DNA of 64,000 nucleotides, from contig JABAKD010000006.1 of NCBI GenBank assembly GCA_012845835.1, forward strand, positions 5,758,318-5,822,317, read 5' to 3'. Positions 8,976-55,700 of this stretch are shown piece by piece. Both the position numbers and the translations under genes were made by a program. The first letter of the stretch is position 1, and each line of letters opens with the position of its first letter. This DNA comes from Undaria pinnatifida. Its lineage: Eukaryota; Sar; Phaeophyceae; Laminariales; Alariaceae. The notes under the pieces were generated by a model. It was not told the DNA's origin. It did not search any database and worked only from the letters and a program-made list of their open reading frames with translations.

Positions 8976-9180
8976 AAAAAATGAAAATACACTCCAGCTG
9001 TGAGATCGAAGATTTTGTCGAAAATTCTATTTGCAAGCAGTGTTTGATACTCCGATCGCGCGTATTACGGGTTGTGCTTCCTCATTAAGGATATAGGTCG
9101 GCCACTCCCGTTGCAACTACAGACAGTGTAGCTATCAGGGTCAACAGGATGATGCCAGTCAGTCTGTGCGCGGAAACTAT
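8976..9180 (+). repeat. Dispersed repeat family R2, copy
   Basis: Full core and tail, including the block 'gctatcagggtcaacaggat' and 'cagtctgtgcgcggaaacta', without the poly-G extension. Confidence 0.8.
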
Positions 9181-9705: not shown

Positions 9706-10202
9706 ATCTTCCTCCTCGCCCGAGCTCCCCTCCTCCGAGCCGTGTGACTCGTCTGAATCACCTGAGCCCCCCTTCTGCTGCGAGGTCTCGGTGCGTGCGA
9801 TGGGGGCTGGGACACTCTTCTTCCTAACCGCGACCTTTCGGCGTGGTGCGGGGGCTCCAGCAGTCCTACTCTTGCCCCTTCCCTTACGCTAACGCAATTT
9901 TCCCACCACCGCGTCCGTTTCCACCTTGCCTACTACGTTGCACCTCTCTTTAAAACTCACTGTGTTGGGATCTGACTTGCTCAGAGCCAAAGCAGAGGTA
10001 GAGCTAACGCAGAGGTATGCTTTTGTTGTAAATGGTAGACCACAAAGTACTCCCACACCCACACTTCAGGCTTGCTGAATATGCAATTCAACGGTACGTT
10101 GGTGCATGGTGTACAATCCGTGAAAATGGACACCGCTTTGAGGCCTAAGGCAACGACATTTCTTCGCGAGTCCAACTTGAGCGCGAGAGGACAGGTGGAG
10201 TG
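9706..10202 (+). repeat. Left arm of a large imperfect inverted repeat
   Basis: The reverse complement matches 10283-10772 over nearly the whole arm. Landmarks: 'tgtgttgggatctgac' at about 9960 pairs with 'gtcagatcccaacaca' at about 10500, and 'caacggtacgttggtgcatg' pairs with its complement in the other arm. Arms are about 490-497 bp around an ~80-bp loop. Both arms encode the same short basic-to-acidic peptide (read minus on this arm, plus on the other), with a one-base indel between them. Confidence 0.85.
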
Positions 10203-10282
10203 CATCTAAGATGCCGCGTTCCCCTTGCTGGCTTGTACAACCCAGGTTTTGCACTTGTCCCCGATCTCCCCGCCACAAAATC

Positions 10283-10772
10283 ACAGAGCACTCCACATGT
10301 CCTATCGCGCCCACGTTGGACTCGCGAAGAGGTTAACGTTGCGTTAGGCCTCAAAGCGTCGTCCACTTCCACGGACTATACACCATGCACCAACGTACCG
10401 TTGAAGTGCAAATTTTGCACGCCTGAAGTGTGGGTGTGAAAGTACTCTATGCTCTACCATCAATAACAAAAGCATACCTCTGCGTTGGCTCTGAGCACGT
10501 CAGATCCCAACACAGTGAGATTTAAAGAGAGCTACAACGTAGTAGACAAGGTGGAAAAGGACGCGGTGGCGGTAAAGTTGAGTTAGTGTATAGGAAGGGG
10601 GAAGGGTATGACTGCTAGAGCCCCCGCACCACGCCGAAAGGTCGCGCCTGGGAAGAAGAGTGTCCCAGCCCCCATCGCACGCACCGATACCTCGCAGCAG
10701 AAGGGGGGCTCAGGTGATTTTAGACAAGTCACACGGCTCGGAGGAGGGGATCTCGGGCGAGGAGGAAGACTC
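10283..10772 (-). repeat. Right arm of a large imperfect inverted repeat
   Basis: Mirror of the arm at 9706-10202. Its plus-strand reading continues into an Asp/Glu-rich frame and then directly into the (GGA)n array at 10.8 kb. The arms may derive from one acidic-tailed gene fragment duplicated head to head. Confidence 0.85.
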
Positions 10773-10807
10773 CGACAAGGATGACTTTGACGATGGGGGG
10801 GGATTCC

Positions 10808-11356
10808 GAGGATGAGGATGTGGATGAGGGGGGGGGGGGGGCGGAGGGGGGAGGGGAGGAGAGGAGGAGGAGGGGAGGAGAGGAGGAGGAGGAGAAGGAG
10901 GAGGAGAAGGAGGAGCAAAAGGAGGAGGAGAGAGAGGAGGAGGAGGAGGAGGAGGAGGAGGCGGAGGAGGAGGAGGAGGGAGGAGGAAGGAGGAGGAGGA
11001 GGAGGAGGAGAGGCGGAGGGGCGGGGAGGAGAGGAGGAGGAGGAGGAGGAAGGAGGAGGAGGAGGAGGAGGAGGAGGAGGAGGAGGAGGGAGGAGGAGGA
11101 GGAGGAGGAGGAGGAGGAGGAGGAGGAGGCGGAGGAGGAGGAGGAGGAGGAGGAGGAGGAGGAGGAGGAGGAGGAGGAGGAGGAGAGGAGGAGGAGGAGA
11201 GAGGAGGAGGAGGAGGAGAAGGAGGAGGAGGAGGTGGAGAAGGAGGAGGAGGAGGAGGAGGAGGAGGAGGAGGAGGAGGAAGAGGAGGAGGAGGAGGAGA
11301 GGAGGAGGAGGAGGAAGGAGGAGGAGGAGGAGGAGGAGGAGGAGGAGGAGGAGAGG
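10808..11356. repeat. (GGA)n-rich low-complexity array up to the gap
   Basis: Imperfect GGA/GGAG array of about 550 bp that runs straight into the N gap. The long poly-Glu, poly-Arg and (complementary) poly-Ser/Pro/Leu frames are trinucleotide artefacts. The gap probably exists because this array could not be assembled. Confidence 0.95.
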
Positions 11357-11856
11357 NNNNNNNNNNNNNNNNNNNNNNNNNNNNNNNNNNNNNNNNNNNN
11401 NNNNNNNNNNNNNNNNNNNNNNNNNNNNNNNNNNNNNNNNNNNNNNNNNNNNNNNNNNNNNNNNNNNNNNNNNNNNNNNNNNNNNNNNNNNNNNNNNNNN
11501 NNNNNNNNNNNNNNNNNNNNNNNNNNNNNNNNNNNNNNNNNNNNNNNNNNNNNNNNNNNNNNNNNNNNNNNNNNNNNNNNNNNNNNNNNNNNNNNNNNNN
11601 NNNNNNNNNNNNNNNNNNNNNNNNNNNNNNNNNNNNNNNNNNNNNNNNNNNNNNNNNNNNNNNNNNNNNNNNNNNNNNNNNNNNNNNNNNNNNNNNNNNN
11701 NNNNNNNNNNNNNNNNNNNNNNNNNNNNNNNNNNNNNNNNNNNNNNNNNNNNNNNNNNNNNNNNNNNNNNNNNNNNNNNNNNNNNNNNNNNNNNNNNNNN
11801 NNNNNNNNNNNNNNNNNNNNNNNNNNNNNNNNNNNNNNNNNNNNNNNNNNNNNNNN
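11357..11856. other. Assembly gap, 500 N
   Basis: Exactly 500 N, a conventional placeholder length, so the real size is unknown. Sequence on the two sides does not belong to one open frame. Confidence 1.
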
Positions 11857-12300
11857 CCGGGTTGCTCCGGTTCGCTGCTGAACGTCGAATCATGAACTAT
11901 CCTCCTCTTACGTTCTTCTTCTACCACCCCCACGAGGTTAATCCGCAAACCTCGCACGCTCCGCGCTACTATCACTGGCATCACAATCACTCTCCCTTTC
12001 TTGACGTCTCTCACTGCATTCTCCCACAACTCGGCCACTTGTTTTCTAGCGCTGCTATGGTTCCCGTATGCCAGTTCCCGCTCGAGATTGCCTCCGGATC
12101 CCACATGCAACGGCACGCCTAGTCTCGCTATCTGTTCCAGCAGTGCGAAGCGGTCGACCTTGTGTCGTTCCCCGAAGATTTTCTTCACGCGCTCTACGTC
12201 AACATGTGGTACGAGCAGCTCTCCACCTAACGCCTACACCACCTTCCCTAAGTCCCCTCCTTTTCTTAGTAGTATCTCTTCTCCCAACCTAGCCACGACT
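11857..12300 (-). pseudogene. Retroelement reverse transcriptase, N-terminal fragment
   Basis: Read on the minus strand, the frame entering the gap has a recognisable RT N-terminus. There is a Leu/Ile-rich approach helix, a 'YGNHSSA' block, then 'KGRVIVMP', 'GLRINLVGVVEE' and 'RRIVHDSTFS', which match the beta-strands preceding the first catalytic Asp in DIRS/Ty3-like elements. The first catalytic region lies in the gap. An in-frame TAG interrupts the upstream part at about 12.23 kb. Together with the broken gag-like frames at 14.3-16.0 kb it looks like the remains of an older minus-strand retroelement. Confidence 0.6.
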
Positions 12301-12689
12301 CCCAGCAGTCGATCTCTTCGACTGCGTCTTCTCGTGACTTCCCCAGGCGCCCCATTGCGCTCCTCCACCTTGGGACCGCCTCCCGTTTCTCGCCCTTGAA
12401 CTCGTGCGCCGCCCCGTGGCTACGCTCTGTCCCTTCCCCCCCGTGGTTAGCTTCTTCTCTACGCCCCGCTCCTCCGCCCCCGTCACCGAAAGCTCCCCGT
12501 TCCTGAGCGTGTACGGCCTCATCGCCGTCCGCTCCCCCCTTTTCCTTTGCGCAGTCCCGTCGCCGCGCTCCCCCCCCGCCTGGTTTTGTACGGCCCCGTT
12601 ACCGCCCCCCGCCCCCTCCCTTCTCCCCGCGCGGCCCCGTTGCCACGTCCCCCCCCCCCCCCCCCCCTTGGACGTGTGCGGCTCCATCG

Positions 12690-13580
12690 CCGCCCACTCC
12701 CGCCCCTTTTCGTTTCGCAGCCCCGTTGCCGCGTTCCCCCCCGGCCTGGACATGTGCGACCCCGTTGCCGCGCCCTCCCCCCCCCTTTCTTTTTGCGGCC
12801 CCGTTGCCGCGCTTCCCCCCGACTGGGTCATGTACGGCCTCGTTCGTACACCCCCCCCCCCTTTTTCGCGACCCCTTTGTCGCGCACCCCCCGTTTGTCT
12901 GAGCCCGCGGCCTGGCCGCCGTCACTATGCACGGCCCCGATGCCACGTTTCCTCCCGACATGATGGTGTGCGGCCCCGTTGCCGCACACACACCCCGTTT
13001 CTTTGCTCGGCCCCGTTGCCGTTTTCCCCCCCGGCCGGGCCGTGTACGGTTTCGTTGCCGTATACCCCCCCCACATTTTATGCGCGGCCCCTTTGCCTCG
13101 CACACCCCGTTTGTTTAAGCCCGCGGCCTGGCCGCCGTGGCTCTGTGCGGCCCCGTTGCCGCGTCGCCCCCCGGCCTGATCTTTGTGTGCGGCCCCGTTG
13201 CTATACACCCCCCCCCCCCTTTCTGTGCGTGGCCCTGTTGCCGCGCTTCCCCCCGGCCGGGTCGTGTACGGTCCCGTTACCGCACACCCTCCCGCCCACC
13301 CTGTGCGTGGCCTCTTTGCCACGCAACCCCCATTTGTAAGAACCCGCGGCCTGGCCGCCGTCGCTCTGCGCGGCCCCGTCGCCGCGTTCGTTCCAGACCT
13401 GATTGTGTGCGGCCCCGTTGCCGCACACCCCCCCCCCTTTTCTTTGCGCGGCCGCGTTGCCGCGCTCCCCCCCGGCCGGGTCGTGTACGGTCTCATTGCC
13501 GTACACCCCCCCCCCCCGTTTTTACGGCCCTTTCTCCGCGCACCCCCCGTTTGTTTGAGCTCGCGGTCTGGCCGCCGTCG
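12690..13580. repeat. Macrosatellite, ~215-224-bp period, four units
   Basis: The block 'cgcggcctggccgccgt' recurs at about 12.91, 13.12, 13.34 and 13.56 kb, giving periods of 215-224 bp. Each unit contains nested copies of 'cggccccgttgccgc' separated by C homopolymers. Both strands stay open for 150-310 codons because the repeat lacks stops. The plus-strand Pro/Arg/Cys-rich and minus-strand Gly/Ala/Asn-rich readings are repeat products, although the minus reading lies between the gag-like and RT-like frames of the retroelement remnant. Confidence 0.85.
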
Positions 13581-14333
13581 CTCCCCCCTTTGCCCAGTTG
13601 TGTACTTCTTATTCGCGGCTTTCCCGCCTCGATACCACTAGCTTCTCCTTCTTGTCCCTGTACAGTTCATTTCCCGTACCCTCCTTCCCCCCTTCCTCTC
13701 GCGCGCCCTATCCCTCGTGTTCCTTTATCCTTTGCGTAACCTACTGCCTTTCCCTTTCCTTTCCTTATTTCTCCCCTTTTCTCTTCTTTTTCCCCTCTGG
13801 TTCCCCACCCCTACCTCCTCGCCCCCTTCGAGCCCCTTATTTTCTTTACCTGTATTGATTGATCTGACCGACCCCGGTGTCGGCCCTCCCGCGATGTTGG
13901 TCTCCCAGCCTTTCTGCTCCACTCGGTGGCCCTCTCTGTGCTAGAATTCGCCTCCCGGTCCCCGTTCGTCTATGGCTGGCCCTGCGCTCTGGCAGGGCCC
14001 GCACCTTCATTCGTCCTTCTTGCCCTTCTTCTCCCCCGCCCTCTGCCCCCCCGGGGCTGCTCGCTTCTCACCCCTTCCCACCCCCCGACCCGCTCATCTT
14101 TTTTCCCCTTCTCGCCCCTGTGCTCGAACTTGCAGTCCCCACAATTTTCCATGTAAGGACAGGGCTTGCCACTGTTGAAGAAGTAACACTCCTTGCTTCC
14201 CCCCCCCCTCCTTCCTTTCTTTACCCTTGCGTTCTCCTGCTACACCCCTCTCCCCCCCGCCCCGCTTCCCCCCGCCGGTTGCCCTCTTCGTACCCTCCCC
14301 CTCCCCCCTTTCCTCCCTCCCCCAGCCCTGCAC

Positions 14334-17229: not shown

Positions 17230-17233
17230 CTAG
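17230..17233. other. Target-site duplication CTAG (5')
   Basis: CTAG directly precedes the 5' LTR and recurs at 27960-27963 directly after the 3' LTR. Extending to five bases breaks the match, so the duplication is 4 bp. Confidence 0.9.
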
Positions 17234-17251
17234 TGTTGCGGCGGATTGACA

Positions 17252-17259
17252 TGACGTCA
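17252..17259. promoter_or_regulatory. TGACGTCA (CRE/bZIP-type) palindrome in the 5' LTR
   Basis: Perfect 8-bp palindrome 43 bp upstream of a TATAA sequence. bZIP factors bind this motif in many eukaryotes, and stramenopile aureochromes recognise TGACGT. Use by this element is inferred. Confidence 0.45.
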
Positions 17260-17294
17260 CATGAAATCCCGTGGCGGAATGCTTCCTAGGTCTG

Positions 17295-17299
17295 TATAA
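17295..17299 (+). promoter_or_regulatory. TATAA box candidate in the 5' LTR
   Basis: TATAA at LTR offset 62, downstream of the CRE-type site and upstream of the long LTR remainder, a usual position for the U3 core promoter. The transcription start was not determined. Confidence 0.4.
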
Positions 17300-17674
17300 C
17301 GCCGATCAGTCTAGAAAGCGTGCTGCTCACGGCCTCAGTCCAAAAACACACAAAACCAAACGAGGGAAAAAGGAACCTGAACTTGATCTGACACGAGTGT
17401 GAGTGACTGCGAACCGAGCTTGAGTACAGCTATCGTTACCGTGAGGCATTGTTGGAGGTTTCATCCGGAGATCTGTTATATTGTACGAGCGCTTGGAAGA
17501 GGACCGCGTCGTACGAGACTGGTGTTTGCAGGCAGCTGTTGCAACAAGCAGACAGGAGGGATCAGCCTGAAGGTAGACACGGAGGAAACGAACTAGAAGC
17601 GGTGAGAGAGTTGGGACAAGGGATTGGAGACTTGGGTACGTGTGACTTAAATAGCTCTTTATCCGTTCGTTACA

Positions 17675-17692
17675 TGGGGCCTCAGCTGGGAT
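17675..17692 (+). other. Primer-binding site
   Basis: TGGGGCCTCAGCTGGGAT begins on the base after the LTR. It starts with TGG, complementary to the CCA tail of a tRNA. The complement would have discriminator base C and a T-arm-like GATCCCAG, compatible with a tRNA 3' end. The tRNA species is not identified. Confidence 0.7.
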
Positions 17693-17694
17693 CC

Positions 17695-20440: not shown

Positions 20441-21350
20441 CGCAGCTTCGTCGAGTACATCGTGTATCACGCAGCCACATCGAGTCCGTCTTCGTCAAAG
20501 GGAAACGGGCGGCGTCCCGGGGAGGGGGGGGGGAGTGATTGGAGGAAATAACATGGCAGGGAGAGGGGGCCCTTTTTGGGGACCTTTTGGTGCACCCTAC
20601 CCGAGGGGACGGGGGGGGAGGAGTGATTGGAGGAAATAACATGGCAGGAAGAGGGGGATCTTTTTGGGGGACCTTTTTGGGGACCTTTTGGTGCACCTTA
20701 CCCGAGGGGAGGCCCACCACAGGGTGGCCCGCCACAGACCGGCCAGGCTGGAGGCTCACCACAGGGCGGCCAGGTCGGATGGGGCCCACAGGGCGGTGCA
20801 GGACGAGGGGCAGCAGGACCGGCAAATCCTGTAGGAGCGGGACGCGGGTACAATCAGATGTCCCCTCCCTCCCTAACGTCACCCTTCGGAATCGGAGGAC
20901 GATGGGGTCCACAGGCAGCCCCAAGAGGAGCACCACCGAACCCTATATCGCGAGGAGGACCTCCGATAGCGCCACCGATGCCGCCAAGGCCGCCCCAGCA
21001 ACAACAGCCAGGGTATGCTAGCCAACAACCACCGAACCCTATATCGCGAGGAGGACCTCCGATGGCGCCACCGATGCCGCCAAGGCCGTCGCAGCAACAA
21101 CAGCCAAGGTACGCTAGCCAACAACAGCAAGGGTTCGCTGGCCAACAACAGCCAGGGTTTGCTGGCCAACCTCAGCCATGGTTTGCTGGTCAACAGCAGC
21201 CAAGGTTTACTGACCAACAGCAGCCGGGGTTCACTGGTCAAACAACAGCCAGGGTTCGCTGGCCAACAGCAGTGAGGGTTCACTGGTCAACAGCAGCCAA
21301 AGTTCAGAGAGTTCCGCTCACCGATCGGGAATGGGAGCACTGTAAACTAA
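20441..21350 (+). CDS. Gag-like Pro/Gln/Gly-rich ORF of the LTR element, frame-broken
   Basis: The reading passes through three frames. An N-terminal Gly/Arg-rich piece contains 'GGNNMAGRGG', duplicated by an 88-bp tandem repeat (20523-20708) whose copies are in different frames. Next come a 'PPNPISRGGPP'/'PMPPRP' section occurring twice (20.93-21.10 kb) and about eight 24-bp repeats coding QQQPGFAG-type units (21115-21300). An extra A in 'caaacaacag' (about 21241) shifts the frame inside that array, and a TGA interrupts it at 21273-21275. It ends at TAA 21348-21350. There is no capsid helix bundle and no CCHC knuckle. Position directly before protease supports a gag C-terminus, expressed possibly by recoding. 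Coordinates for the N-terminus are uncertain because no ATG clearly starts it. Confidence 0.55.
20523..20708 (+). repeat. 88-bp tandem duplication in the gag-like ORF
   Basis: The block beginning gtgattggaggaaataacat and ending ctacccgagggga/cttacccgagggga is repeated after 88 bp. Small internal indels place the two copies in different frames. Confidence 0.85.
21115..21300 (+). repeat. 24-bp coding minisatellite (QQQPGFAG units)
   Basis: About eight units of the pattern caacarcarccarggttyrctggy. One unit is 25 bp (extra A near 21241) and one carries TGA. It encodes a low-complexity Gln/Pro/Gly/Phe segment typical of disordered gag or linker regions. Confidence 0.85.
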
Positions 21351-24300
21351 GACGTCACAGGTTTGGGTTCATGCAACGTTGTGGCATGCAACGAGCTCGA
21401 GCCGGCGACTTCCGATGGCGGTGCTGGTGGATACTGAGGCGGTTGGAGGAAACTACGTGTCACGGCAGTTCATCGAACCCATTGAAGAACGTGATGGTTG
21501 CGGAACGTCGCTGATAAATCCAACGGGAGACGGCCTACTCCGCACAGCAAACCCAAAGAACAGCGCCGTACCCCCGATGGAAGTGGTAGACTCGTGCTTG
21601 CTACCACTAGTCTTTGCACCGGTCGACCAAATCTTCCGCGTGAAGTTCAGGGTGGTGAAAGGACTTCCGCATGCGATGGTGCTTGGAGCCGCGTCCATGA
21701 AGGACAATCGAAGCATCCTCAGCTTCGATGGGGAGGAGGGTTTCCGGCCGACACCATCCTCAGCGTGGGTACCATTCGCCTCGAAGGAGGTCGGAGAGGC
21801 CGCGGCAGGGGCGATGTGTGCCGAATGGGAACACTATTGCGCGGTGAAACCGTCAACGGACGAGCAAGAACCGGACGAATTGGCGGGACCGAAGATCCCG
21901 GCGGGGATTATGGAGTTAGGAAACTCTGTTTGGGAGGACGAAGGCACTCTGCACTGGAAACTACGCATTGCGAAAAACGTAGAGGTTCCAGGTGGTACCA
22001 GTATCCAGGTAGACGCTTTTGTCAAAGGCCCTCAGCCTCAAGTGCAGCAGCTCGTAGTGGTAGAGCCTACTAACCGCTATGATCTTAAACTAGGAGTGGA
22101 TCTAGGAGTGCCAAGGGGGGCACAGTGGTGGTTTCCAGGTATACCACTTCAATGTAAGTTGTCGAATGTTGCCCAGGATAATGTGAAGATCCAGGGGGGG
22201 CTGGTGATTGCGACGGTTTACGCTGTTAACAATTACGATCGGGAACGCATGAAGTCACTCATGAACCCGGTATCGGAGAAACCGACCAGCCCCAAACAGG
22301 ACGAGGGGATCAAAAAGAAAGACAAGAGGAGACCACCGGAGCAATGCAACAAAGGGGGTGAAATCGCAGAGATTCCGAACGAAGCCCCCAAGGTGGAGTA
22401 CATCGATGTGTTCGCGGTCAACCCCAAGAGCGTACCAGCGTGCAAAGGAGTGCCCATGCGACTGGAGCTCAAAGATCCCAACGTCAAGCCATACGTGGCG
22501 CCCATTCGACACTACAGCCCGGAACAGCGCGAAATGATTCAAACGGAGGTGGTGAAACTCCTGAGGAATGGATCCATTCGGGAATCAACTTCCGAGTGGG
22601 CCGCCAATTTTTCGACGGTTCGCAAGAAAGATGGGACAGTGCGGGTTGTACAGGATTTTCGAGGTATCAATGCGCTTCTCAAATCACAGAGTGGTGGACT
22701 CGGGGACTTGCAGCATATTATGGATGAGATGGAAGGGTCGAAGTATTTCTCTAGCATCGATTTAGCTTCAGGATTCTTACAGCTCGAGATCCATGAGGAT
22801 GATCGACACCTGACAGCATTTCGAGACGCTGACGGAAAGCTGTACGAATACGTTCGCTGCGGCTTCGGGTTGAAGACAGTGCCTTCGGCGTTTGCCAACT
22901 ACGTTGGAGGGCGACTGTTAACCGTCAAGGATAGGGGAATCAAGAACTGGTTGGACGACATCGCCATCCCGTCGAAAACCCTTGAAGGTCAGTGGGTACT
23001 GCTGCGAGAAACGTTAGAGTGTCTGAGGCAAGGACGTTTAACCGTAAATCTTCAGAAATCGCATTTCTGTCAGTCGGTCATGGAGTTCGTCGGCATGATC
23101 GTGGATAGACTTGGTACCAGGCCAGCCCCGAGCAAGATCGATGCTATCACGCAGCTGTCCAGGCCGAACACGGTGGAGGAAGTGCGAGTGTTGCTGGGCA
23201 TGACAGGATACTTACGACAGTTCGTACCCCAGTATAGCACGGTGGTGGCACCCATTTCCGACTTGCTGAGAGATCCAAGGTTCAGAACCAAGAGAGCGAA
23301 GAAAGAGAAAGTCCCATGGAGAGAAGAACAGAACAAAGCTTTTGATGCGCTTATCGAAGCTTTGACGTCACCTCCAATCCTAGCCCTGCCGGTGTGGACA
23401 GAACCGTTCTCGCTGTCCACCGATGCCAGTGAGATAGGAGCAGGAGCGGTGCTAACACAATGCATTGAAGGAGTGGAAAAGGTGATCACGTATGGCAGCA
23501 AAAGGTGGTCGAGAGGAGACTCCAAAAGGTCAGCAACGGACCGTGAATGCATGGCGGTCATGTGGGCAGTAAACAAATTCCAACCCTATCTTTGGGGACG
23601 GCCGTTCACGCTCATCACGGACTGTTCGGCGTTGACTTGGCTCTTCAAAAGCCAATCTCTCACACCGAAATACCACCGCTGGGCTCTGAGGTTGATGGAG
23701 CACGACATAACCTTGAAGTGGAGGCCGGGGACACAACATCAGCTCCCAGACGCCATGTCGCGGTTACCGAACAAGAGCATCGTGATCGAAAATTTCGACG
23801 ACTCTTTTCCAGGAGACGAGTCGTTGCCAAACGTTTACAAAGGGCCACAGGGGCCAGTGCTCGACGGCGTACACCTCGAAACCTTAGGAGTAGAAGATGT
23901 GGACGGATCTAGTACTCAAAGTCTTACAGTACTTGCAGCCGTCGCACTCACACCCACAGACCCATCAGAGGCAGATACTCAACAGGCCAAGCTTGTCATT
24001 GCACCGGAGCTTCCAGTGGTGGTCATGCTCGACTGTGGGGGGGGAGGCAGCATCCTTGCATCAGAAGGCTTGCTGACGGTCAGGGGAGCAGTAGACCAGG
24101 ACTGGAGAGCACTGGAATGCATCAGAGCAAACGGACTGGACAAAGGTGCGAAGCTTCTTAGGGTGACAACAGAGTCGCCGGAATGCCTAACCATGTTGAG
24201 AGAGGTGAAACCAGACGTAGTGGTCGGTGACGCCTGCAGGAGGTTTGAAGGGATACGAGAGAAGGAGGGAATATCCGGAGCGAGTAGCCTAACCCAAGCT

Positions 24301-24432
24301 GCCATCGCTTCAGACGCACGATTTTTCATACTCGAATGTTTGGGCAACCTTCTGCGAACGACGGTATGGAACGAGGAGATTCTCCCCGCTTTGGAACGAG
24401 AGTCATACATCGTGGACAAAAAGAAATACTAG
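21346..24432 (+). CDS. pol: Pol part 1: protease, reverse transcriptase, RNase H and N-half of a C5-methyltransferase
   Basis: This frame opens five bases before the gag stop, so it is probably reached by +1 frameshifting; the first ATG is at 21415. Retropepsin follows: 'VLVDTEAVGGNYVS', with Glu (codon 21436-21438) where the family has Gly of D-T/S-G, then a 'VLGA' strand. RT runs about 22.4-23.1 kb with 'FSSIDLASGF' (first catalytic Asp), 'FGLKTVPSAF' and the catalytic 'NWLDDI' (Asp codons 22954-22959; Trp in place of the common Tyr). RNase H has 'STDAS', 'DRECMAVMWA', 'ITDCSALTWL' and a final 'LPDAMSR'. A ~60-residue linker leads into a methyltransferase: motif I 'LDCGGGGSILASEGL' (Asp codon 24031-24033), catalytic-loop Cys at 24235-24237 in 'VVVGDACRRF', and Glu 24334-24336 in 'FFILECLGNLL'. 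TAG at 24430 stops the frame inside that domain, just after a five-A run. Confidence 0.9.
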   Translation, partial: TKTSQVWVHATLWHATSSSRRLPMAVLVDTEAVGGNYVSRQFIEPIEERDGCGTSLINPTGDGLLRTANPKNSAVPPMEVVDSCLLPLVFAPVDQIFRVKFRVVKGLPHAMVLGAASMKDNRSILSFDGEEGFRPTPSSAWVPFASKEVGEAAAGAMCAEWEHYCAVKPSTDEQEPDELAGPKIPAGIMELGNSVWEDEGTLHWKLRIAKNVEVPGGTSIQVDAFVKGPQPQVQQLVVVEPTNRYDLKLGVDLGVPRGAQWWFPGIPLQCKLSNVAQDNVKIQGGLVIATVYAVNNYDRERMKSLMNPVSEKPTSPKQDEGIKKKDKRRPPEQCNKGGEIAEIPNEAPKVEYIDVFAVNPKSVPACKGVPMRLELKDPNVKPYVAPIRHYSPEQREMIQTEVVKLLRNGSIRESTSEWAANFSTVRKKDGTVRVVQDFRGINALLKSQSGGLGDLQHIMDEMEGSKYFSSIDLASGFLQLEIHEDDRHLTAFRDADGKLYEYVRCGFGLKTVPSAFANYVGGRLLTVKDRGIKNWLDDIAIPSKTLEGQWVLLRETLECLRQGRLTVNLQKSHFCQSVMEFVGMIVDRLGTRPAPSKIDAITQLSRPNTVEEVRVLLGMTGYLRQFVPQYSTVVAPISDLLRDPRFRTKRAKKEKVPWREEQNKAFDALIEALTSPPILALPVWTEPFSLSTDASEIGAGAVLTQCIEGVEKVITYGSKRWSRGDSKRSATDRECMAVMWAVNKFQPYLWGRPFTLITDCSALTWLFKSQSLTPKYHRWALRLMEHDITLKWRPGTQHQLPDAMSRLPNKSIVIENFDDSFPGDESLPNVYKGPQGPVLDGVHLETLGVEDVDGSSTQSLTVLAAVALTPTDPSEADTQQAKLVIAPELPVVVMLDCGGGGSILASEGLLTVRGAVDQDWRALECIRANGLDKGAKLLRVTTESPECLTMLREVKPDVVVGDACRRFEGIREKEGISGASSLTQAAIASDARFFILECLGNLLRTTVWNEEILPALERESYIVDKKKY

Positions 24433-24860
24433 CGAGCCAAGTAGGGATTCCATGGAGGAGGAAACGGACATTCGTGGTAGGAATCAAGGGAGGCCTTGCC
24501 ACAAAAAGGAAGTTAGCCGTTTGGAAGCGGAGGTTGGAGAAGGTAAAGCAACCAGTTCAGGAATTAGGGGAATTGCTGGGACGAAGAGGCGCATACTTCT
24601 TGAAAAGAGGTAACGGAGAGCGAGCGATTTACTCGTTCAACGAACCCATCATCTCTTTGAACCGTGCTCACATCATGGGGGAAAGCCAACCGAAGGGTAT
24701 ATCGCACACCCAGCGGATGCGGCACGCCTTGAAGAAGCCGAAGAGTTGCACTTCAACGACTACGCCAAAATCACCACAGGGCAAGAGCACTACGTGATCC
24801 CGCAAACGGTTAGCCAAAGCGCAGCGGCAAACGTCATCGCATATTTCACGTCTCCTCCAA
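23998..24860 (+). other. Divergent DNA (cytosine-5) methyltransferase domain within pol
   Basis: Motifs in family order are: I (D-x-G-G-G-G with a following Asp-containing strand, 'GAVDQDWRALECIRANG'); IV ('VVVGDACRRF', retaining Cys but with Ala-Cys-Arg instead of Pro-Cys-Gln); VI ('LECL', Glu kept, Asn-Val lost); VIII ('GIPWRRKRTFVVG', keeping R-x-R); IX-like ('ADAARLEE'); and X-like ('QSAAANVIAY'). The domain lies in three frames: frame of pol to 24432, -1 frame from the A5 run (24418-24422), -1 again at the G3 run (24695-24697). C5-MTases methylate cytosine via the motif IV Cys and motif VI Glu; both are visible, so activity is possible if the frames are joined, but the altered neighbours make a non-catalytic role equally possible. 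Other Rossmann methyltransferases are less likely because motifs VI and VIII are specific. Confidence 0.75.
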
Positions 24861-25414
24861 TGCTGCGAGCAGTATTAGTTGAACTAGCTGTTCAAGGCTT
24901 ACTGGGAAAACCGGTACCAGAGGTGGCGGAACTAGAAGGGTTGGCCTGCATGGTGTTTGAAGATTACCTCGCAGCATCGAAAGCCTTTGAGGTGACAAGA
25001 GCGGTCACGAGATCGCAGGCAAAGGCCACTTCCCAGGAGCCGGAGGTTGTCTGGGAGGCAGAACCGCCGTTACCTGAGGAGGAGGAGATGGAGAATGCAA
25101 AGGCGCAGACGGTCACTACTACTGAACTACCAGTGGAAGTTGATCGCCCACGCAAACGCAGGGGTCAGAGAGAGCCCATCCCGAGACCGAAACGGCAACG
25201 TGATCCGTTGGAAGAATCACCAAAGGACACCAGCAGCCGTTCAAGCGGATCAGGGAAAGAGGCCAAGGGATCCCAGCGGTCAGAGCCATCCATGTTGGAA
25301 AGGGTGACAGCTATTCTCCAGGATTTGCCACAACTGACGCAGAGGCAGTGCGAAGATATGGTACTTGGCAAGATTCGGAAAGAACTCCAGGAAGCGGGAA
25401 ACCGAGGATCATGA
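24418..25414 (+). CDS. pol: Pol part 2: C-half of the methyltransferase and charged linker, frame-shifted
   Basis: From the A5 run the methyltransferase continues in the -1 frame (24418-24695: 'GIPWRRKRTFVVGIKGG', then a 'SFNEPIISLN' block resembling the strand after the target-recognition region). It shifts -1 again at GGG 24695-24697 to finish with motif IX/X-like sequence (to ~24860). The remainder to TGA 25412-25414 is a linker: an 'AVTRSQAK' motif common just before gypsy integrases, acidic stretch, two basic clusters ('PRKRRGQ', 'PRPKRQR') that could act as nuclear localisation signals, Ser-rich segment and a Leu-rich helix. The frame after the TGA is the same as the integrase frame, so one codon change would join them. 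Confidence 0.75.
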
Positions 25415-25429
25415 GGTGGCGAATATGTG

Positions 25430-27139
25430 ATGGATGATAACGGCCTCTTGTGGATGGCACCTCGGGGAAAGATCCCACGACTTGCAGTTCCCCGATCTCT
25501 CGTTCCAGGGATTATGGCGCTGGCGCACAGCACCTATGGGCATCCGGGGACGGCACGAACTACAGCCTTGATTAGTCATCGGTACTGCTGGCCCACCCTC
25601 ATTAAGGACGTTAGAGACTACGTCCTCTCGTGTGGGTGCAGACGACGCAAGCGGTCAGCGAGTCAACGGGTTGCCATGCTACCGTCGAGGTTTCTACGAC
25701 CCGGAGAAGTACTCGAAGTCGACATCCAGGACATGGGGGTGAAGTCGGATGCAGGCAACAAAGTTCTACTGGTAGCAGTTGACAAAGCCAGCAAGTTCTT
25801 GTTCGCCTTTCCACTCCCTACGAAAGAAGCAATCGGAGTAGCGAGGAAACTGCTCGAAGTGATGCTTGCTTTTGGGCTACCGCTGTATGTTCGCAGTGAT
25901 CCGGGATCCGAGTTCACGGCAGAGGTGATGCAACACTTATGTAAGTGGTTGAACGTGACCATCGCCTATGGGCCTGCCGATCATACACGTGCACAGGGGA
26001 CGGTGGAGAGATTGGGGGGGTGGCTACACGAAGCACTAGGAGAACTGTGCAAGACCTGGCCTCGCAGATGGGACGAATACGTACAACCGGCACTGTGGAT
26101 CCATCGTACCACGCCGGACCTGCGCCTGCCGGGGAAGCCAACTCCCTTCCGTCTGTTCTTCGGTCGTGATACACGCACGCAACTTGATGCTACGCACCCT
26201 GAGATAGATGGTGGTGATTTCAGAGGCGGGATGCACAGTTACGTGGCCGACAAACGTCAAGCGTACAAGGAGGTACGGGATGTACGGATGGCTCTATCGA
26301 AAAGACATGAAGACAGGCAGAAAAATCGTGAAAGTCGGAATGCTGAAATCGGTCGGACCTCGGTAGGCACCCGTGTTGTTGTCGGAGATAAGGTGCTGGT
26401 GAAGGAGGCGGAGTCTGTGATGGTAAGGGAAGGGATACATCATAAACTAGCCCACGAGCACTGGACCGGACCTTGGGAGGTGACTGAAGTTGTCTTACCA
26501 GGACTCAGCTACATCGTCACGATGAATGGGCGAGGGATTCGCCGACGACGGGCGTCAGCATCGAATATCAAGATGTTCCACTTACGTCCGGACGACCTCC
26601 GTCACGACTTCGAAAACGAATTTGCTCACCTGGCATGGGGAGTTGACTTCGGACTGGCGGAGCCGTCGACTGTAGCGTCGCCTATGTATACCCTAATAGA
26701 CAGAAAGGCTGTGATGGGTCAAGGCAACGCTTGGAAGTGGCGATACAAGGGACGATTCGTGGATGGCACAGAGTCGCAGTGGCTGTCCGAAGAGGAGGCA
26801 CGAGACAGCTTCACCCCTTTACAGCTGGACGTTTTCCATGCGCTGTGGGAAACGTATCACGGAGCGGAGTGCCGGGCAAGACCAACTTCGACGCTAACGC
26901 GGAAGGAAAGAGATGGGATCGACCGCGAACAAGCGTTGAAACAACACCCCGTGGGGACCGTAATCTGGAGGGAATTCGCGGACGCTGAAGGAAACAAGAA
27001 GCGTCACCTTTCAAAAGTCTTCGACTACAAGTCACCGTACTGGCGGGTTCGGTACGCAGACGGAGATTGGGAGGAGCTCAACGAACGTGAAATCCTGAAA
27101 GGTAGGAGGACCGGAAATTCGCAATCCGGTTCCCCGTAA
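25430..27139 (+). CDS. pol: Pol part 3: integrase with GPY/F, chromodomain-like and Tudor-like modules
   Basis: Inserts the cDNA into the host genome. It has an N-terminal zinc-binding region 'AHSTYGHPG' and 'CGC' (spacing C-x-C, one residue shorter than the usual C-x2-C). The catalytic core is 'LEVDIQDMG' (first Asp), 'RSDPGSEF' (second Asp) and 'GTVERLGG' (Glu), with exactly 35 residues between the second Asp and the Glu. A GPY/F-type module follows ('HWTGPWEVTEVV ... SNIKMFHLRP'). Next is a chromodomain-like stretch ('WKWRYKGRFVDG ... W' and a following helix), then a Tudor-like end ('YWRVRYADGDWEELNEREIL'), a combination seen in some chromovirus-like elements. First ATG at 25430; the upstream in-frame codon is separated from the linker only by TGA 25412-25414. 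All catalytic residues are present. Confidence 0.92.
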   Translation: MDDNGLLWMAPRGKIPRLAVPRSLVPGIMALAHSTYGHPGTARTTALISHRYCWPTLIKDVRDYVLSCGCRRRKRSASQRVAMLPSRFLRPGEVLEVDIQDMGVKSDAGNKVLLVAVDKASKFLFAFPLPTKEAIGVARKLLEVMLAFGLPLYVRSDPGSEFTAEVMQHLCKWLNVTIAYGPADHTRAQGTVERLGGWLHEALGELCKTWPRRWDEYVQPALWIHRTTPDLRLPGKPTPFRLFFGRDTRTQLDATHPEIDGGDFRGGMHSYVADKRQAYKEVRDVRMALSKRHEDRQKNRESRNAEIGRTSVGTRVVVGDKVLVKEAESVMVREGIHHKLAHEHWTGPWEVTEVVLPGLSYIVTMNGRGIRRRRASASNIKMFHLRPDDLRHDFENEFAHLAWGVDFGLAEPSTVASPMYTLIDRKAVMGQGNAWKWRYKGRFVDGTESQWLSEEEARDSFTPLQLDVFHALWETYHGAECRARPTSTLTRKERDGIDREQALKQHPVGTVIWREFADAEGNKKRHLSKVFDYKSPYWRVRYADGDWEELNEREILKGRRTGNSQSGSP

Positions 27140-27518: not shown

Positions 27519-27959
27519 TGTTGCGGCGGATTGACATGACGTCACATGAAATCCCGTGGCGGAATGCTTCCTAGGTCTGTATAACGCCGATCAGTCTAGA
27601 AAGCGTGCTGCTCACGGCCTCAGTCCAAAAACACACAAAACCAAACGAGGGAAAAAGGAACCTGAACTTGATCTGACACGAGTGTGAGTGACTGCGAACC
27701 GAGCTTGAGTACAGCTATCGTTACCGTGAGGCATTGTTGGAGGTTTCATCCGGAGATCTGTTATATTGTACGAGCGCTTGGAAGAGGACCGCGTCGTACG
27801 AGACTGGTGTTTGCAGGCAGCTGTTGCAACAAGCAGACGGGAGGGATCAGCCTGAAGGTAGACACGGAGGAAACGAACTAGAAGCGGTGAGAGAGTTGGG
27901 ACAAGGGATTGGAGACTTGGGTACGTGTGACTTAAATAGCTCTTTATCCGTTCGTTACA
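27519..27959 (+). repeat. 3' LTR, 441 bp
   Basis: Same length as the 5' LTR, with a single visible difference (G at 27839). Carries the same TGACGTCA (27537-27544) and TATAA (27580-27584) sites. Confidence 0.97.
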
Positions 27960-27963
27960 CTAG
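27960..27963. other. Target-site duplication CTAG (3')
   Basis: Matches the CTAG before the 5' LTR. Confidence 0.9.
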
Positions 27964-29689: not shown

Positions 29690-29875
29690 GATAACAAAAA
29701 AATATATTCCAGCTGTGAGATCGAGAAAGATTTCGTCGAAACTCATATCTGCAAGCTGTGTGTGATACTCCGATCGCGCGTATTACGGGTTGTGTGTCCT
29801 CATTAAGGATATAGGTCGGCGACTCCCCTTGCAACTACCGTGTAGCTATCAGGGTCAACAGGGTATATTATATAA
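29690..29875 (+). repeat. Dispersed repeat family R2, copy
   Basis: Core and tail conserved (ttccagctgtgagatcgaga, catatctgcaagctgtgtgt, ataggtcggcgactcccctt), without poly-G extension. Confidence 0.8.
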
Positions 29876-43700: not shown

Positions 43701-46700
43701 GCCTGGTATGATAATTGATTTTCTTGGCAAAGAGAAGGCCCCCAACAATTCACTGCGGATTCGTATGGCATAATTTACCACTAAGCACCGCACCAAACCT
43801 TCACACCGCGAAGGACCAGGGGGGTCAAACTTCACACCGCGAAGGACCAGGAGGGTCGAGCTTGACAACGCGAAGGACCAGGGGGGTCACTCGCACGGGT
43901 GACCTCGAGACACCGCAAAAAAAAAAAAAAAAAACGGGAGTGACCCCCCAACCGTAGTCAGGTTCTTCTGCCCGTGATTATATCTACATGGCAGCGTTGT
44001 TCATCGGCTGGCATTTTCATTGTTCCACCTGGAGTCAGCGTATAATTAAATCCTTTCAAATCACGTGGCAGGGAGCCTCGCAAAAAATGGTGCACGATCA
44101 CCCCTCCAATATCGCTGTATGTAGTATATGGTGGCATGCGTGTTGGTGCTCCATCATTCCGTAACCGACTGACACGTGCCATACCATAGAGGTGCGCTGG
44201 CTCTATTTCGCATTCTGAGAGGGTTTTTGCTTTGGATCGAATACTCCACCCAAACGAAGAGACTCGAGATAGCTTCAAAGCGCAACTCGATTACCAAAGA
44301 CACGGCCTCGGGCGTGATAAAATGCTCTATACATCACCACCTAAGAGTACCCTGAAAGCGCAACGTGATTACCGGAGACATGGCCTATAGCAGGTTGTGT
44401 GAAGAACAAAAAATGTGACAATTGAAAAAAAAAAACAGACACTCCCACGGCTTCATGGTGGGGATCCAACGTTGTTATCAAAAACGTAATTCAAGAAAAT
44501 GATCTGGCCAAGAGTTGCTACCTCTATGTACTGCAGCACACCCCCCACTGTTCAACGTCGGGCAGCGCTTTAGATGTTGGACCGTGACCACGGTACAGGG
44601 GTCGCTGTTGTGGGGGCTCGGGGTCACTTGCGCACGTGTCCTCACTGTTTCTACTGCGGTCCTAAGCTCTGCGCCGAGCTGTTTATATTTAGCGATACCA
44701 ACCTGCTGCATATGAAACGATAAGACATATGCTTTCGGAAGCGAAATAATCCAAGCATTCCGCAGGCGCCATCCTCCCGCGTGCTGCTCCAACAAGTCCC
44801 TTTACGTCGTATCGTCTGTGAGGTACAGCGTCACTCGTGCGAGTGGTCAAACCCTAGGGATGAAAATGGGGACAACGTACTACAACAGACTATACCGTAG
44901 TCTTCTTCGGTTTTGTTCTCTAAGTCGCACAGGGTGGGCACCCCTGTACTGCAGAGAGGGCGCCGCGCGTATTTCGACGCGGTTTCTTTTTTCCTTTCTC
45001 ACCGCATCGCGACAGGCTGCCAGCAGGGTCTCGTTCCCCTCCTTGTATTGCCGCACGCGCACGTCGTACTCGTCTTCCAGCCTCTCAATCGCAAAGCTGT
45101 GGGTCGTCATGAATGCTTCCCCGATCGGGGTCCTATTTCCGGCGTCCCCGCCCCCAGAGCGAAAGAAAAGCACGGCCTCCTCCAGTATACGCTCGTAGTG
45201 CACCCAGCTGGGGTGTTGACAGGGGGGCACGGGCAGTACGGAGGATGGGGATGGACGCGTGGTGCATTAAGTGATGGAAGGCGGGCTACGATAGAGGTAC
45301 GGCATACCCCTTTTTGGCGAAACCATTTTGTGAATGAAGTCGACTCCTTCACCCAAAATCGTCGGGAATACCATATTTGTTTGTGTGTGCCGATCCAATG
45401 TCTTGTTTCATCGGGTACATTTTCGGATATGTTTTCGGTTAAGCCAACAAAATCAGAGTTTCGAGGTGAGGTATACACCTACTCAATTCAGGAGGCCCCC
45501 TCGGAAAATGACTGATGGGCATTTCACAGAACGTACAGTGTCATGCGTCTGGGGGTAGATGGCCGTCTTGGCCGACACGTTTCTGCTGGATTGGGGCTGC
45601 TCGAGTCATGACTACACAGCGAAACGCCGTTGAACTGAGAAAATCCCACCGTAGGATTGCCCTTTTCGGGGCCAAACGTTTCTGACCTTCTTACGGGTTG
45701 ATTGGCCTCTTCAAGCGTGGAAGTATCTTGGTTATTTATAGTATGGTATCGTTACGGGCGTGTTTGGGGCGGGACTAGCGCATAGAACTGTCGTCGGCCA
45801 GGGTGCGCGAATGCCTTTCCAAGTAATGTTTCGGGTGATGATGACGAAGATGTTGATGACAATGGATGACGATGCTGACGATGATGGATGATAATGATGT
45901 TGATGACGAGGGATGACGATGCTGACGATGATGGGTGATGATGTTGATGATGTTGACGACGAGGGATGACGATGCTGACGATGATGGATGATGACGATGT
46001 TGATGACGAGGGATGAAGATGCTGACGATGATGGATGATGATGTTGATGATGTTGACAGTCAGCAGCTAGCTCTCCACATGTTAAGACCCAGGCTACGGT
46101 ACCATAAGGGTTATGTATGCTATGTAGGGTTGTTTCCAAGTTTTGTTGGCAGTGGCTGGGGGTCACTCGCTCGAGTGAACCACCCCCCTGTTCCTTCCTT
46201 CGCGGTCATAGACTTTTGTGACATACTGTTGAATTATTTTAGACATGAATCCTTGATGGGATGGTTAGTTGGATTGCGATAAACTAACCACCTAACGTGT
46301 CTTGGTCAGTGAGGTGCAGAGCCATTCGTGCGACTGCTGAAGACCAGGTGGTGAAAACGGGGAGATGTCGCCTGCCGCTTTCCCCTACCGTTAGCTTGAG
46401 AGCTACAAAAATACACTCAGTGGCACCCCTACCTACCGTGATACGACTGAACTACTGCAATATGGTTTTCGCGTTGTTGTTTGTTGTATATATATAGGCC
46501 ATGGCATTATGGACTTGCGTTTCCCTTCCTTCTTTTTTCGCTCAAAATCATTTATTGCGTGAGGGACGAGGAACTCTTCCAGCGAGAAACCTCAGGAGAT
46601 TTATCGCAGGCACACCATCTCTACCGCTTCACGCGTCGGTGGGGGGAATGTCAAGATGACTGTTTCCGAGCAAAGGACACCGTTAAGTCTGGCTGAGGTC

Positions 46701-52700: not shown

Positions 52701-55700
52701 CTAGTGCAATCAGTCGGCTGACGCCTACACCAAAAGTGCTCGTACGTAGTTTCAGAGCATCGTGGTGGTTTGGTTGATGCGCCGGGGCGGAAAGCGTTTG
52801 GCTCTTCAAGCTTGCTTGCTTCAGTTGTTCGCGTCTCTGCGTTGCTGTTGTCGTTTCTTCTGCGTGTGTTGAACCCCATGTTACACGGCCCGCCGGACAA
52901 AACATAAATAATAATGTGTTTTATAATTTTATTTCTGTAGTTTCCACTATTATAGTCTATTGCTCTACCATATAATGTATGGTGGATGGTTTACGGGTGT
53001 ATGGCTTGGTCAGGGTCGTTGGTACTGTGCGCACGTATATTTTCTCTATCTACCTGAGGGTGGTTTTGGACAATGATTATTTATTTTTTTTTTCACTGTA
53101 ATATTGGCGGGTTTTGGTATACATCGGGAGTATGAAGACAGAAGACAGTAATGGTGCTCTGATAGATATCATGTGAAAGTTCCATCCTAAAAATTATAAA
53201 ATAAAATAAAAATAATAAAATAGTAAAATAATAAATAATTAAACAAAAAAAGTAACATGTACTGTCACCACAACATTTTACGTGTAAAAGTCCCACCCTG
53301 AAAAACCACGGGAATCGGTGAGGCTCGAACCCACGGTTCTAAATTAATACGTTGTCACCCTAACGAAAAAAAAAAACACCCCTAAAAAACAAAAGCAGGA
53401 GTCGGTGAGCTTAAAGCAATACGCTGTCACTCTAATATAAAAAAACCCCACCCCGACAAGAATGAAATTTATTACATAAAAAAATACTCGGAGTATAGAT
53501 TAAATAACGGGAGTCGGTGAGCCTCAAATTCACGGTTCTAAATTGATACTGTCATCTTCAACGATACAGAAAAAAACAGTTTCGTTTCACGAGCGAAAGT
53601 TTCTGAAAAAAATACGAGTCGTACTGGGTTCAAATTTCGAATATAGCTGTGCAAACCAAATCCTGGAACTACCAATCCACTTTCCAGCGACGTGGTCGCG
53701 TCCCTTAATCGACATGAAATTATCTGCCGTTTTCGTGAGCTGTAGTGACAGCACCAAGCTACACGCTTGTACCCTACAACAATTTCCTTGGCCGAGTACA
53801 GCAGTGTGTGTAGCGGAATTACACTGACTTTCCCAAGGAATGCGGTGTGGTTCCAGTGTCTCAAATGATTCCCTGTTTTCTCATTTTTCGAAGGGTGCAG
53901 CAGCGGTACGTAATCCTAAGACCATATACCCTCCTCGCATCCCTAGCATACGTCGGGATGGCGTGCCACACGCGACGCGTGCTACGCTAGAGGTAGCACC
54001 TTTCGTCTGTTTTTTTTTCTGAATGACTGGGCTTCTTAACTCAAAATCGTCGAAAATACGCCCCATTTTTTTTTATTATTCAAGTTGTGTACCTCTAGGC
54101 CACGGGAGGTTTCATCCGGTCGGTGGCAACTTTAATATTCTCCACATGAATGAGTTTTTGGGAGAGGTCCCTTAAGCTGCCAAAGTTGAAGAACCTCTGA
54201 AAAAAACGGTTCACCTCTGTCGTAGCACGCGTCTCGCCGGGTTTTTGGGTATCGCACATGCAAGATGGGGTCGACGTCGCAGTGGGGGAAACTAGTATTC
54301 CAATCCGGATATCTGCGCAACGACTTCGGTCGGAACGCCTGGACACCATGTTGACTTGCACCTCTAAAGACCACAAAACTGCCTGGGGAAGGTCAAGTGG
54401 CAATCATTTGCTTCAAGCGTTTAGGCCAGCATGTTGGCGTGCATCTACCAGTGAAAGGAAATAGGGTATGGAAAATACTGGGGTGCCAATGTCAACGGGG
54501 TAGAAGTGGACAGACAACTTTGCTTTCTCCAAGAAACAGAAACAACAACTTTGCTCCCAGAGCTTCCAAGTTAGCGTGCTGGCTTGCATTTTAAAACCGT
54601 GGCAGTTCTGCTGTATGTAGTAGTAGTGTGAAGAGGGTTTGGTCGCGTTTGTTTGATCTAAGAGCCAGACATGCGTGTTGCCTTGCATCTAGCACTGGGA
54701 AGGGATTACAGAAGAAGAGCGGATAGGCGGAGGCAGGCCAAGAACTAGACCATAACACAAAACAACAATTTCCGTTCAGGAGACGGGCCTAAGCGTTCAC
54801 TTCCATCGGTAAACGGCAGGACAGTACGGAGTATGGAGTGGCTGAAAACATTTTATCGCTAAGCAAGACGTCATCACCCGCATGCTTCTGAGTAGTATCC
54901 ATCATCAGCATGATTCTGAGTAATCCAAACCCCAAAACACATGGGTTCGGCTCCAAGTAGCTCACTATAGGACGAGTGCATCGATAGTGGTAGCCGGTCT
55001 TGGCTGTTGCTTTCTGGATGACGGGGTTTCTCAACCCCGAACACTCGGCATTTTTTTTGTTTTTCTGACTTACGTAGTAATGCGTTTGCATACTTAGGCT
55101 ACGAGTTTGAAAACCACGGGGTTGTGTCTTGAGGGAACTTACGATCATCAGTGTTTGGGCGAGGAATATAGAGCAACTCACGGGAGGAGCCTGCCATCAA
55201 AAAACGCTCATGTACGGCAGGGGGCATCTTACGATGATGTTGTGATGATGCAGTAACGATGATGTTGTGATGATGCAGTAACGATGATGTTATGATTATG
55301 TTACGATGGTATCATGATGTTACGATGATGTTATGATTGTGTTATGTGATATCATGGTGATGTTAAGACGATGTTATGATGATGTAACGATGATGTAATG
55401 ATGGTGTTATGATGATGTTATGATGGTGTTACGATGATCTTATGACGGTGTTATGATGGTGTTATAATCATGTTTAGATCATGTTATGATGATGTTATGA
55501 TAATGCTGTGATGATGTTATCAAGATGTTACGACGTTGTTATGATGATGCTATTACGATGTTACGATGCTGTTACGATGATGCTATGGTGATGTTAGGAT
55601 GATGTCATGATGATGTTATGATGATGTTACGATGGGGTTATGATGATGTTATGGTGATGATACAATAATGGTATGATGATGTTATGATGATGACATGATT

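Follow-up and report, generated by a model that had tools for sequence, protein, structure and literature searches.

What is a cytosine-5 DNA methyltransferase (C5-MTase)-like segment doing within the pol gene of a kelp retrotransposon, and is it likely to methylate DNA? The question is raised by a 64,000-nucleotide stretch of the Undaria pinnatifida genome (GenBank assembly GCA_012845835.1, contig JABAKD010000006.1, forward-strand positions 5,758,318 to 5,822,317), called the window here and supplying the coordinates used below. A first-pass annotation, made from the letters alone, described C5-MTase motifs in correct order between ribonuclease H (RNase H) and integrase, and a domain captured by a Gypsy-type pol. 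The motif order and placement are borne out by location, motif readings, profile alignment and fold, and the capture is supported by fold, profile and relatives. The locus holds a Ty3/Gypsy-type long terminal repeat (LTR) element of a brown alga with a C5-MTase-fold accessory module in the RNase H-integrase gap and a Tudor-like polyprotein end.

RNase H (23398-23700) precedes the segment, and the integrase zinc domain (from 25487) follows it. In the window copy the segment runs through three frames, with motifs I-VI at 23998-24429, motif VIII at 24432-24617 and a C-terminal motif around 24654-24880. Motif names, and the catalytic roles assigned to PCQ (Pro-Cys-Gln), ENV (Glu-Asn-Val) and QxRxR, follow general usage for C5-MTases. 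Motif I reads LDCGGGG and motif VIII GIPWRRKR. Motif IV reads GDACRRFE, its Cys kept with Pro and Gln replaced, and motif VI reads LECLGN, its Glu kept with Asn and Val replaced, as the first reading had it.

The relationship to C5-MTases is carried by fold and profile comparisons. All 50 of the matches listed in the fold comparison of the domain model are C5-type methyltransferases, at 9-17% identity. Aligned with hhalign, 13 family members and 11 C5-MTases gave a local P of 1.2e-5 over 164 columns and a global P of 1.9e-4; the motif order I-IV-VI-VIII is collinear with that of C5-MTases, and the family's motif IV Cys falls on the Cys of Pro-Cys-Gln. The C5-MTase profile included seven of the eight phage loci fetched, with L065 (annotated as two overlapping genes) left out. 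The predicted fold and the profile alignment confirm the segment as a C5-MTase-fold domain whose similarity is beyond chance. Judged by its 9-17% identity to C5-MTases, it is too diverged for a tree that would assign it to a clade such as Dnmt3.

The profile search proposed with the first-pass annotation did find PF00145 (DNA_methylase), but below the gathering cut-off of 22 bits, and the structure prediction proposed beside it gave the C5-type fold. With the frames of the window copy searched separately, PF00145 appeared only in frame 24288-24797 (15.2 bits, E 0.015); trimmed to 24420-24794, the frame scored 16.2 bits (E 0.0075) over profile positions 144-204, with PF00145 the sole family matched, and the first and third domain pieces gave zero Pfam matches up to E 10. 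Among four copies tested that read the domain in a single frame, three scored 17.1, 17.7 and 18.3 bits and the fourth had no match, nor did PF00145 match any of five domain-bearing relatives. The 22-bit score was missed by every piece, relative and open copy tested. Sequence searches of the PDB with two domain pieces found no C5-MTase, the top match of the first piece being a different S-adenosylmethionine (SAM)-dependent enzyme (E 0.088). A protein database search with the domain part alone returned nothing up to E 10, a miss that means little since the search with the whole open reading frame (ORF) found the bearers. The viral contigs searched gave no match; a search with E. coli Dcm returned close Dcm relatives only, and Dcm against the viral contigs likewise added little.

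The element and its parts are as follows.

17230..17233, no strand: left target-site duplication, CTAG (flank sequence)
17234..17674, + strand: 5' LTR, 441 bp, a single mismatch to the 3' LTR
17675..17694, + strand: candidate primer-binding site, starting TGG directly 3' of the 5' LTR (suggested by sequence)
20627..21514, + strand: Gly/Pro/Gln-rich ORF, gag-like by position only (ORF list)
22618..23100, + strand: reverse transcriptase (RT) domain, RVT_1 (Pfam, 61.3 bits)
23398..23700, + strand: RNase H domain, RT_RNaseH (Pfam, 102.9 bits)
23998..24429, + strand: first part of the C5-MTase-like domain, with motifs I, II, IV and VI, sharing the RT ORF's frame (relatives, fold, hhalign)
24420..24680, + strand: motif VIII portion of the C5-MTase-like domain, here in a second frame (PF00145, 16.2 bits; relatives)
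24654..24880, + strand: C-terminal portion of the C5-MTase-like domain, here in a third frame (three relatives, 31-44% identity)
25412..25414, + strand: in-frame stop separating the domain's linker from integrase in the window copy (ORF list)
25487..25969, + strand: integrase zinc (H2C2) and core (rve) domains (Pfam)
27014..27094, + strand: Tudor-like stretch at the C end of pol (PF21743, 22.8 bits, E 7.9e-5, below the 27.2 cut-off)
27519..27959, + strand: 3' LTR, 441 bp (LTR comparison)
27960..27963, no strand: right target-site duplication, CTAG (flank sequence)

With LTRs differing at one position and CTAG at both ends as a 4-bp target duplication, the element is complete and was inserted recently. 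On the plus strand it has the ORFs 20627-21514, 21346-24432, 24288-24797, 24614-25414 and 25415-27139; Pfam places RT and RNase H in the second of these and both integrase domains, zinc and core, in the last. Pol is broken in this copy by the spread of the domain over three frames, by the stop at 25412-25414 and by the absence at 22396/22397 of about 67 bp that are present in all six copies compared (L101-L106). A Pfam search of the Gly/Pro/Gln-rich ORF returned zero families above cut-off. The pol ORF opens (21346-21600) with an aspartic-protease-like motif that is altered here when set beside relatives P0121, P0122 and P0128. Rfam and tRNA scans of the 64-kb window were both empty.

The segment is not peculiar to this copy. 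Across the genome searched (511,146,479 bases in 68 contigs), the first MTase piece gave at least 152 matches (225 candidates, 150 scored) and RNase H at least 150 (1346 candidates, 150 scored). The pairing of RNase H with the domain entered 150 of the 152 domain matches, and the window family was defined as rows at 75% identity or more, fragments included. The domain lies within 2.5 kb downstream of RNase H in 98 of the 105 rows of this family, and the segment is present in about a hundred genomic copies. Outside the family it accompanies RNase H in one of 45 rows, and that row is a degraded family copy at 65% identity. Six of the seven family copies without a domain match were fetched. All are internally deleted, with differing extents (two have common breakpoints), and each retains some of the domain. 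They were accordingly rejected as an ancestral, domain-less form of the family, and copies free of the domain with clean flanks, which the first-pass annotation had named as the sign of a chimera, were not seen among the six. Eight of 19 other copies (among L031-L050) carry the whole domain in a single native frame that extends beyond the C-terminal motif, and three of these eight are stop-free beyond the equivalent of 25412-25414 to the end of the fetched stretch. In the two tested with Pfam, L035 and L037, the stop-free reading ends inside integrase.

Relatives elsewhere carry the domain as well. Queried with the pol ORF, the database yielded 49 proteins with E values no higher than 1e-10 out of 7999 that were scored. 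The first MTase piece was matched by P0121, P0122, P0124, P0128 (from Ectocarpus sp. CCAP 1310/34) and P0140 at 34-38% identity (E 1e-18 to 1e-27), the second piece by four of these five and the third by three (31-44% identity). In all five the domain is at the same place in pol as in the window element. P0135 has the start of the domain, and the protein then ends. A further eight proteins, P0126, P0129-P0134 and P0136, have RNase H and a linker, with integrase in seven of the eight by BLAST, and showed no match to the domain with filters off. PF21743 (Tudor-like) is listed in the precomputed annotation of P0131, P0134 and P0136.

Two related families within the Undaria genome also lack the module. 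L107 (C24, 2232500-2238000) is 56% identical to the window element in RT/RNase H and 61% in integrase; L108 (C52, 13737000-13742500) is 45% and 47% identical. Both have a frame that stays open between RNase H and integrase and shows no vestige of the domain, and their similarity to the window pol stops roughly where the domain would start. Their stop-free frames of 1645 and 1629 aa suggest that they are younger, or better preserved, than the majority of domain-bearing copies.

Gain and loss of the module can be read in part from trees of RT-RNase H. In a tree of 32 rows, bearers and lackers fall on opposite sides when truncated rows are ignored (support 98/96 for lacking, 86/91 for bearing). 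In a tree of 23 rows that includes L107 and L108, with fewer outgroups and truncated rows dropped, L107 falls among the window element, P0121, P0122 and P0135 (support 87/85), and a single bearer clade is disfavoured (approximately unbiased test, p 0.035). A single gain with one bearer clade is disfavoured by these two results, so that loss must be allowed, and the tree favours loss of the module from one or more of the related families in this host. The simplest reading of the sequences would be early gain and later losses, the number of events being unsettled. By the same comparisons the module is old relative to the window family, because it is common to diverged relatives, one of them from Ectocarpus.

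Catalytic residues were surveyed in 54 copies, 20 (the window copy included) plus 34 more. None has Pro before or Gln after the motif IV Cys, and none has Asn-Val after the motif VI Glu. At the motif IV site, where the window element has GDAC, the relatives show GNAC in P0124, DNAC in P0128, GNVC in P0140, GNTS in P0121 and CNIA in P0122, the Cys being absent from the last two. Of the seven diverged genomic copies read out of eight (L051-L057), L053 and L057 have lost the Cys, only L053 retains the motif VI Glu, and none has the two residues together. These copies are decayed, so part of their Cys and Glu loss may be post-insertion decay. The motif I glycines, the motif II Asp-Trp and the motif VI Glu are invariant over a nine-row alignment. 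The ratio of nonsynonymous to synonymous differences (pN/pS; all pairs, codon bootstrap) was 0.47 (0.41-0.52) for RT/RNase H, 0.52 (0.42-0.63) for the C-half of the domain, overlapping RT/RNase H, 0.67 (0.53-0.85) for its N-half and 0.62 (0.47-0.83) for the adjoining linker; it is below 1 in all regions, with post-insertion decay and shared ancestry mixed in.

Because the catalytic motifs are altered, a weakly catalytic or non-catalytic accessory role appears most likely, and from residues and model we lean towards a Pol accessory of low or no activity that would bind SAM and nucleic acid rather than an efficient DNA methylase. The domain would have retained its fold and cofactor-site glycines and drifted from a standard cytosine methylase. 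It may hold the cDNA or an RNA-DNA hybrid, or it could steer the integration complex, beside the Tudor-like putative histone reader. Several results weigh against this interpretation. The window family keeps the motif IV Cys in 48 of 54 copies, the motif VI Glu in 50 of 54 and the two motif VIII arginines in 50 and 49 of 54; the putative DNA-recognition region is poorly modelled; catalytic and cofactor sites are no better kept than random sites within the family, which is uninformative; and constraint on the N-half is not above that of the linker, which fits a passenger too.

The best surviving alternative, which we consider unlikely, is an active C5-MTase whose catalytic loop is non-standard and which methylates new insertions or the cDNA of the element itself. 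The fold and cofactor site are retained, the Cys and Glu are largely kept in the window family, and hhalign places that Cys on the Cys of Pro-Cys-Gln; a retrotransposon DNMT of Symbiodinium methylates CG de novo, as described in the available passages of PMC5890265. Against it, the Pro/Gln of motif IV and the Asn/Val of motif VI are replaced in every copy surveyed, Cys is missing from two of five relatives and Glu from six of seven diverged copies. The suggestion that the element methylates its own cDNA, made at the outset, is weakened by these losses, by an N-half under no tighter constraint than the linker, and by the families that lack the domain.

Distinctly less probable is a passenger, an old capture with no function left that decays in a tolerant linker. 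The N-half pN/pS resembles that of the linker, L107 and L108 manage without the domain, and the catalytic triplets are lost; set against this, most of the domain's length stays in frame in diverged relatives, which retain the invariant residues of motifs I, II and VI, and the C-half pN/pS overlaps RT/RNase H. A Dnmt2-like RNA methyltransferase or binder acting on primer tRNA or element RNA seems very improbable: Dnmt2 is no closer than other C5-MTases among the fold matches listed, and Dnmt2 keeps Pro-Cys-Gln, whose absence here counts against such a role. An assembly chimera, chance motifs or a different Rossmann family could draw on the lack of any above-cut-off Pfam methyltransferase and on the top PDB sequence match of the first piece, and is scarcely credible given the uniformly C5-type fold matches listed, the collinear profile alignment, the relatives elsewhere and the deletions that retain domain parts, the chimera itself being rejected because about a hundred copies share the segment.

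Retrotransposons with DNMTs are known from other algae. According to the passages available of De Mendoza et al. (2018, PMC5890265), they occur in dinoflagellate LINE (long interspersed nuclear element) and DIRS elements and in an LTR Gypsy Pol of Klebsormidium. The architecture, called unusual in the first-pass annotation, is so in part, but a DNMT within an LTR Gypsy Pol has been published as KnitGypsy-Dnmt3. This Klebsormidium nitens element likewise has a C5-MTase domain in the Pol ORF of an algal LTR Gypsy; it is described as belonging to the Dnmt3 clade, with key residues conserved and a repeat structure called DIRS-like. By description, the window element differs in its ordinary LTRs, 4-bp target duplication, altered catalytic triplets, Tudor-like C end and brown-algal host. 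SymbioDIRS-Dnmt3 and SymbioLINE-Dnmt of Symbiodinium also carry a C5-MTase domain, in other classes (DIRS with tyrosine recombinase, and LINE) and with key residues conserved. Free C5-MTases (M.HhaI, DNMT1, Dnmt2; PF00145) share with the domain the fold and the order of motifs I, II, IV, VI and VIII; the domain differs in its low identity to the matches listed, its altered triplets and its place inside a retrotransposon polyprotein. For brown algae, the accessible text of PMC12477816 describes Ectocarpus Gypsy families that bear chromodomains or, at the C-terminus, a Tudor domain. Gypsy-10_Ec32, compared by description only, is one with the Tudor domain at the C end of pol; in that text 'methyltransferase' occurs twice, for an N4C/N6A enzyme of a Sola1 DNA transposon and for histone enzymes, with C5-MTase unmentioned. 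The main text of a diatom DNMT paper, as far as accessible, does not name brown algae (PMC9998398), and none of the titles, abstract starts and passages searched reports a brown-algal retrotransposon with a C5-MTase.

Brown algae thus join dinoflagellates and charophytes, the two lineages published with C5-MTase-bearing retrotransposons, and such domains can diverge beyond Pfam detection and hence go uncounted. A MTase-fold module and a Tudor-like putative histone reader are here found on one integrase-bearing polyprotein, and related families with and without the module in one genome offer a natural comparison of its effect on the element. In the portions available of a kelp methylome study, Saccharina japonica encodes only DNMT2s and about 1.4% of its cytosines are methylated, mostly in CHH context, ascribed to DNMT2 (PMC6916402); whether retrotransposon-borne domains produce or bind 5-methylcytosine (5mC) in kelps is directly testable. 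It is a speculative and rather improbable idea that hidden kelp C5-MTases with a rebuilt catalytic loop, encoded by the many element copies, write the low, mostly CHH 5mC, or that they methylate the element's RNA or cDNA while reverse transcription is under way. Searching the Undaria genome with PF00145 (36 candidates scored, exon by exon, which would miss diverged genes) gave zero matches in the window element. Its only two matches are both on C33, L001 (9584045-9584356, minus) and L002 (9595022-9595297, plus), about 11 kb apart on opposite strands, and the ORF of L002 matches M.HhaI weakly (E 0.0025).

Other repeats are present in the window. Nested inverted repeats lie at 9756-10719, with arms of 245 nt (91%) and 156 nt (87%). 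A long GGA-rich array and, after it, C-rich repeats some 220 nt in length occupy 10783-13582, a region strongly skewed between the strands. Tandem arrays at 55310-55743 and 45833-46079 comprise an 11-nt unit and imperfect units 22 to 31 nt apart. A dispersed repeat of 147 nt occurs at 303-449, 828-974, 8976-9122, 29694-29840 and 56437-56583, its copies being 65-90% identical to the reference copy.

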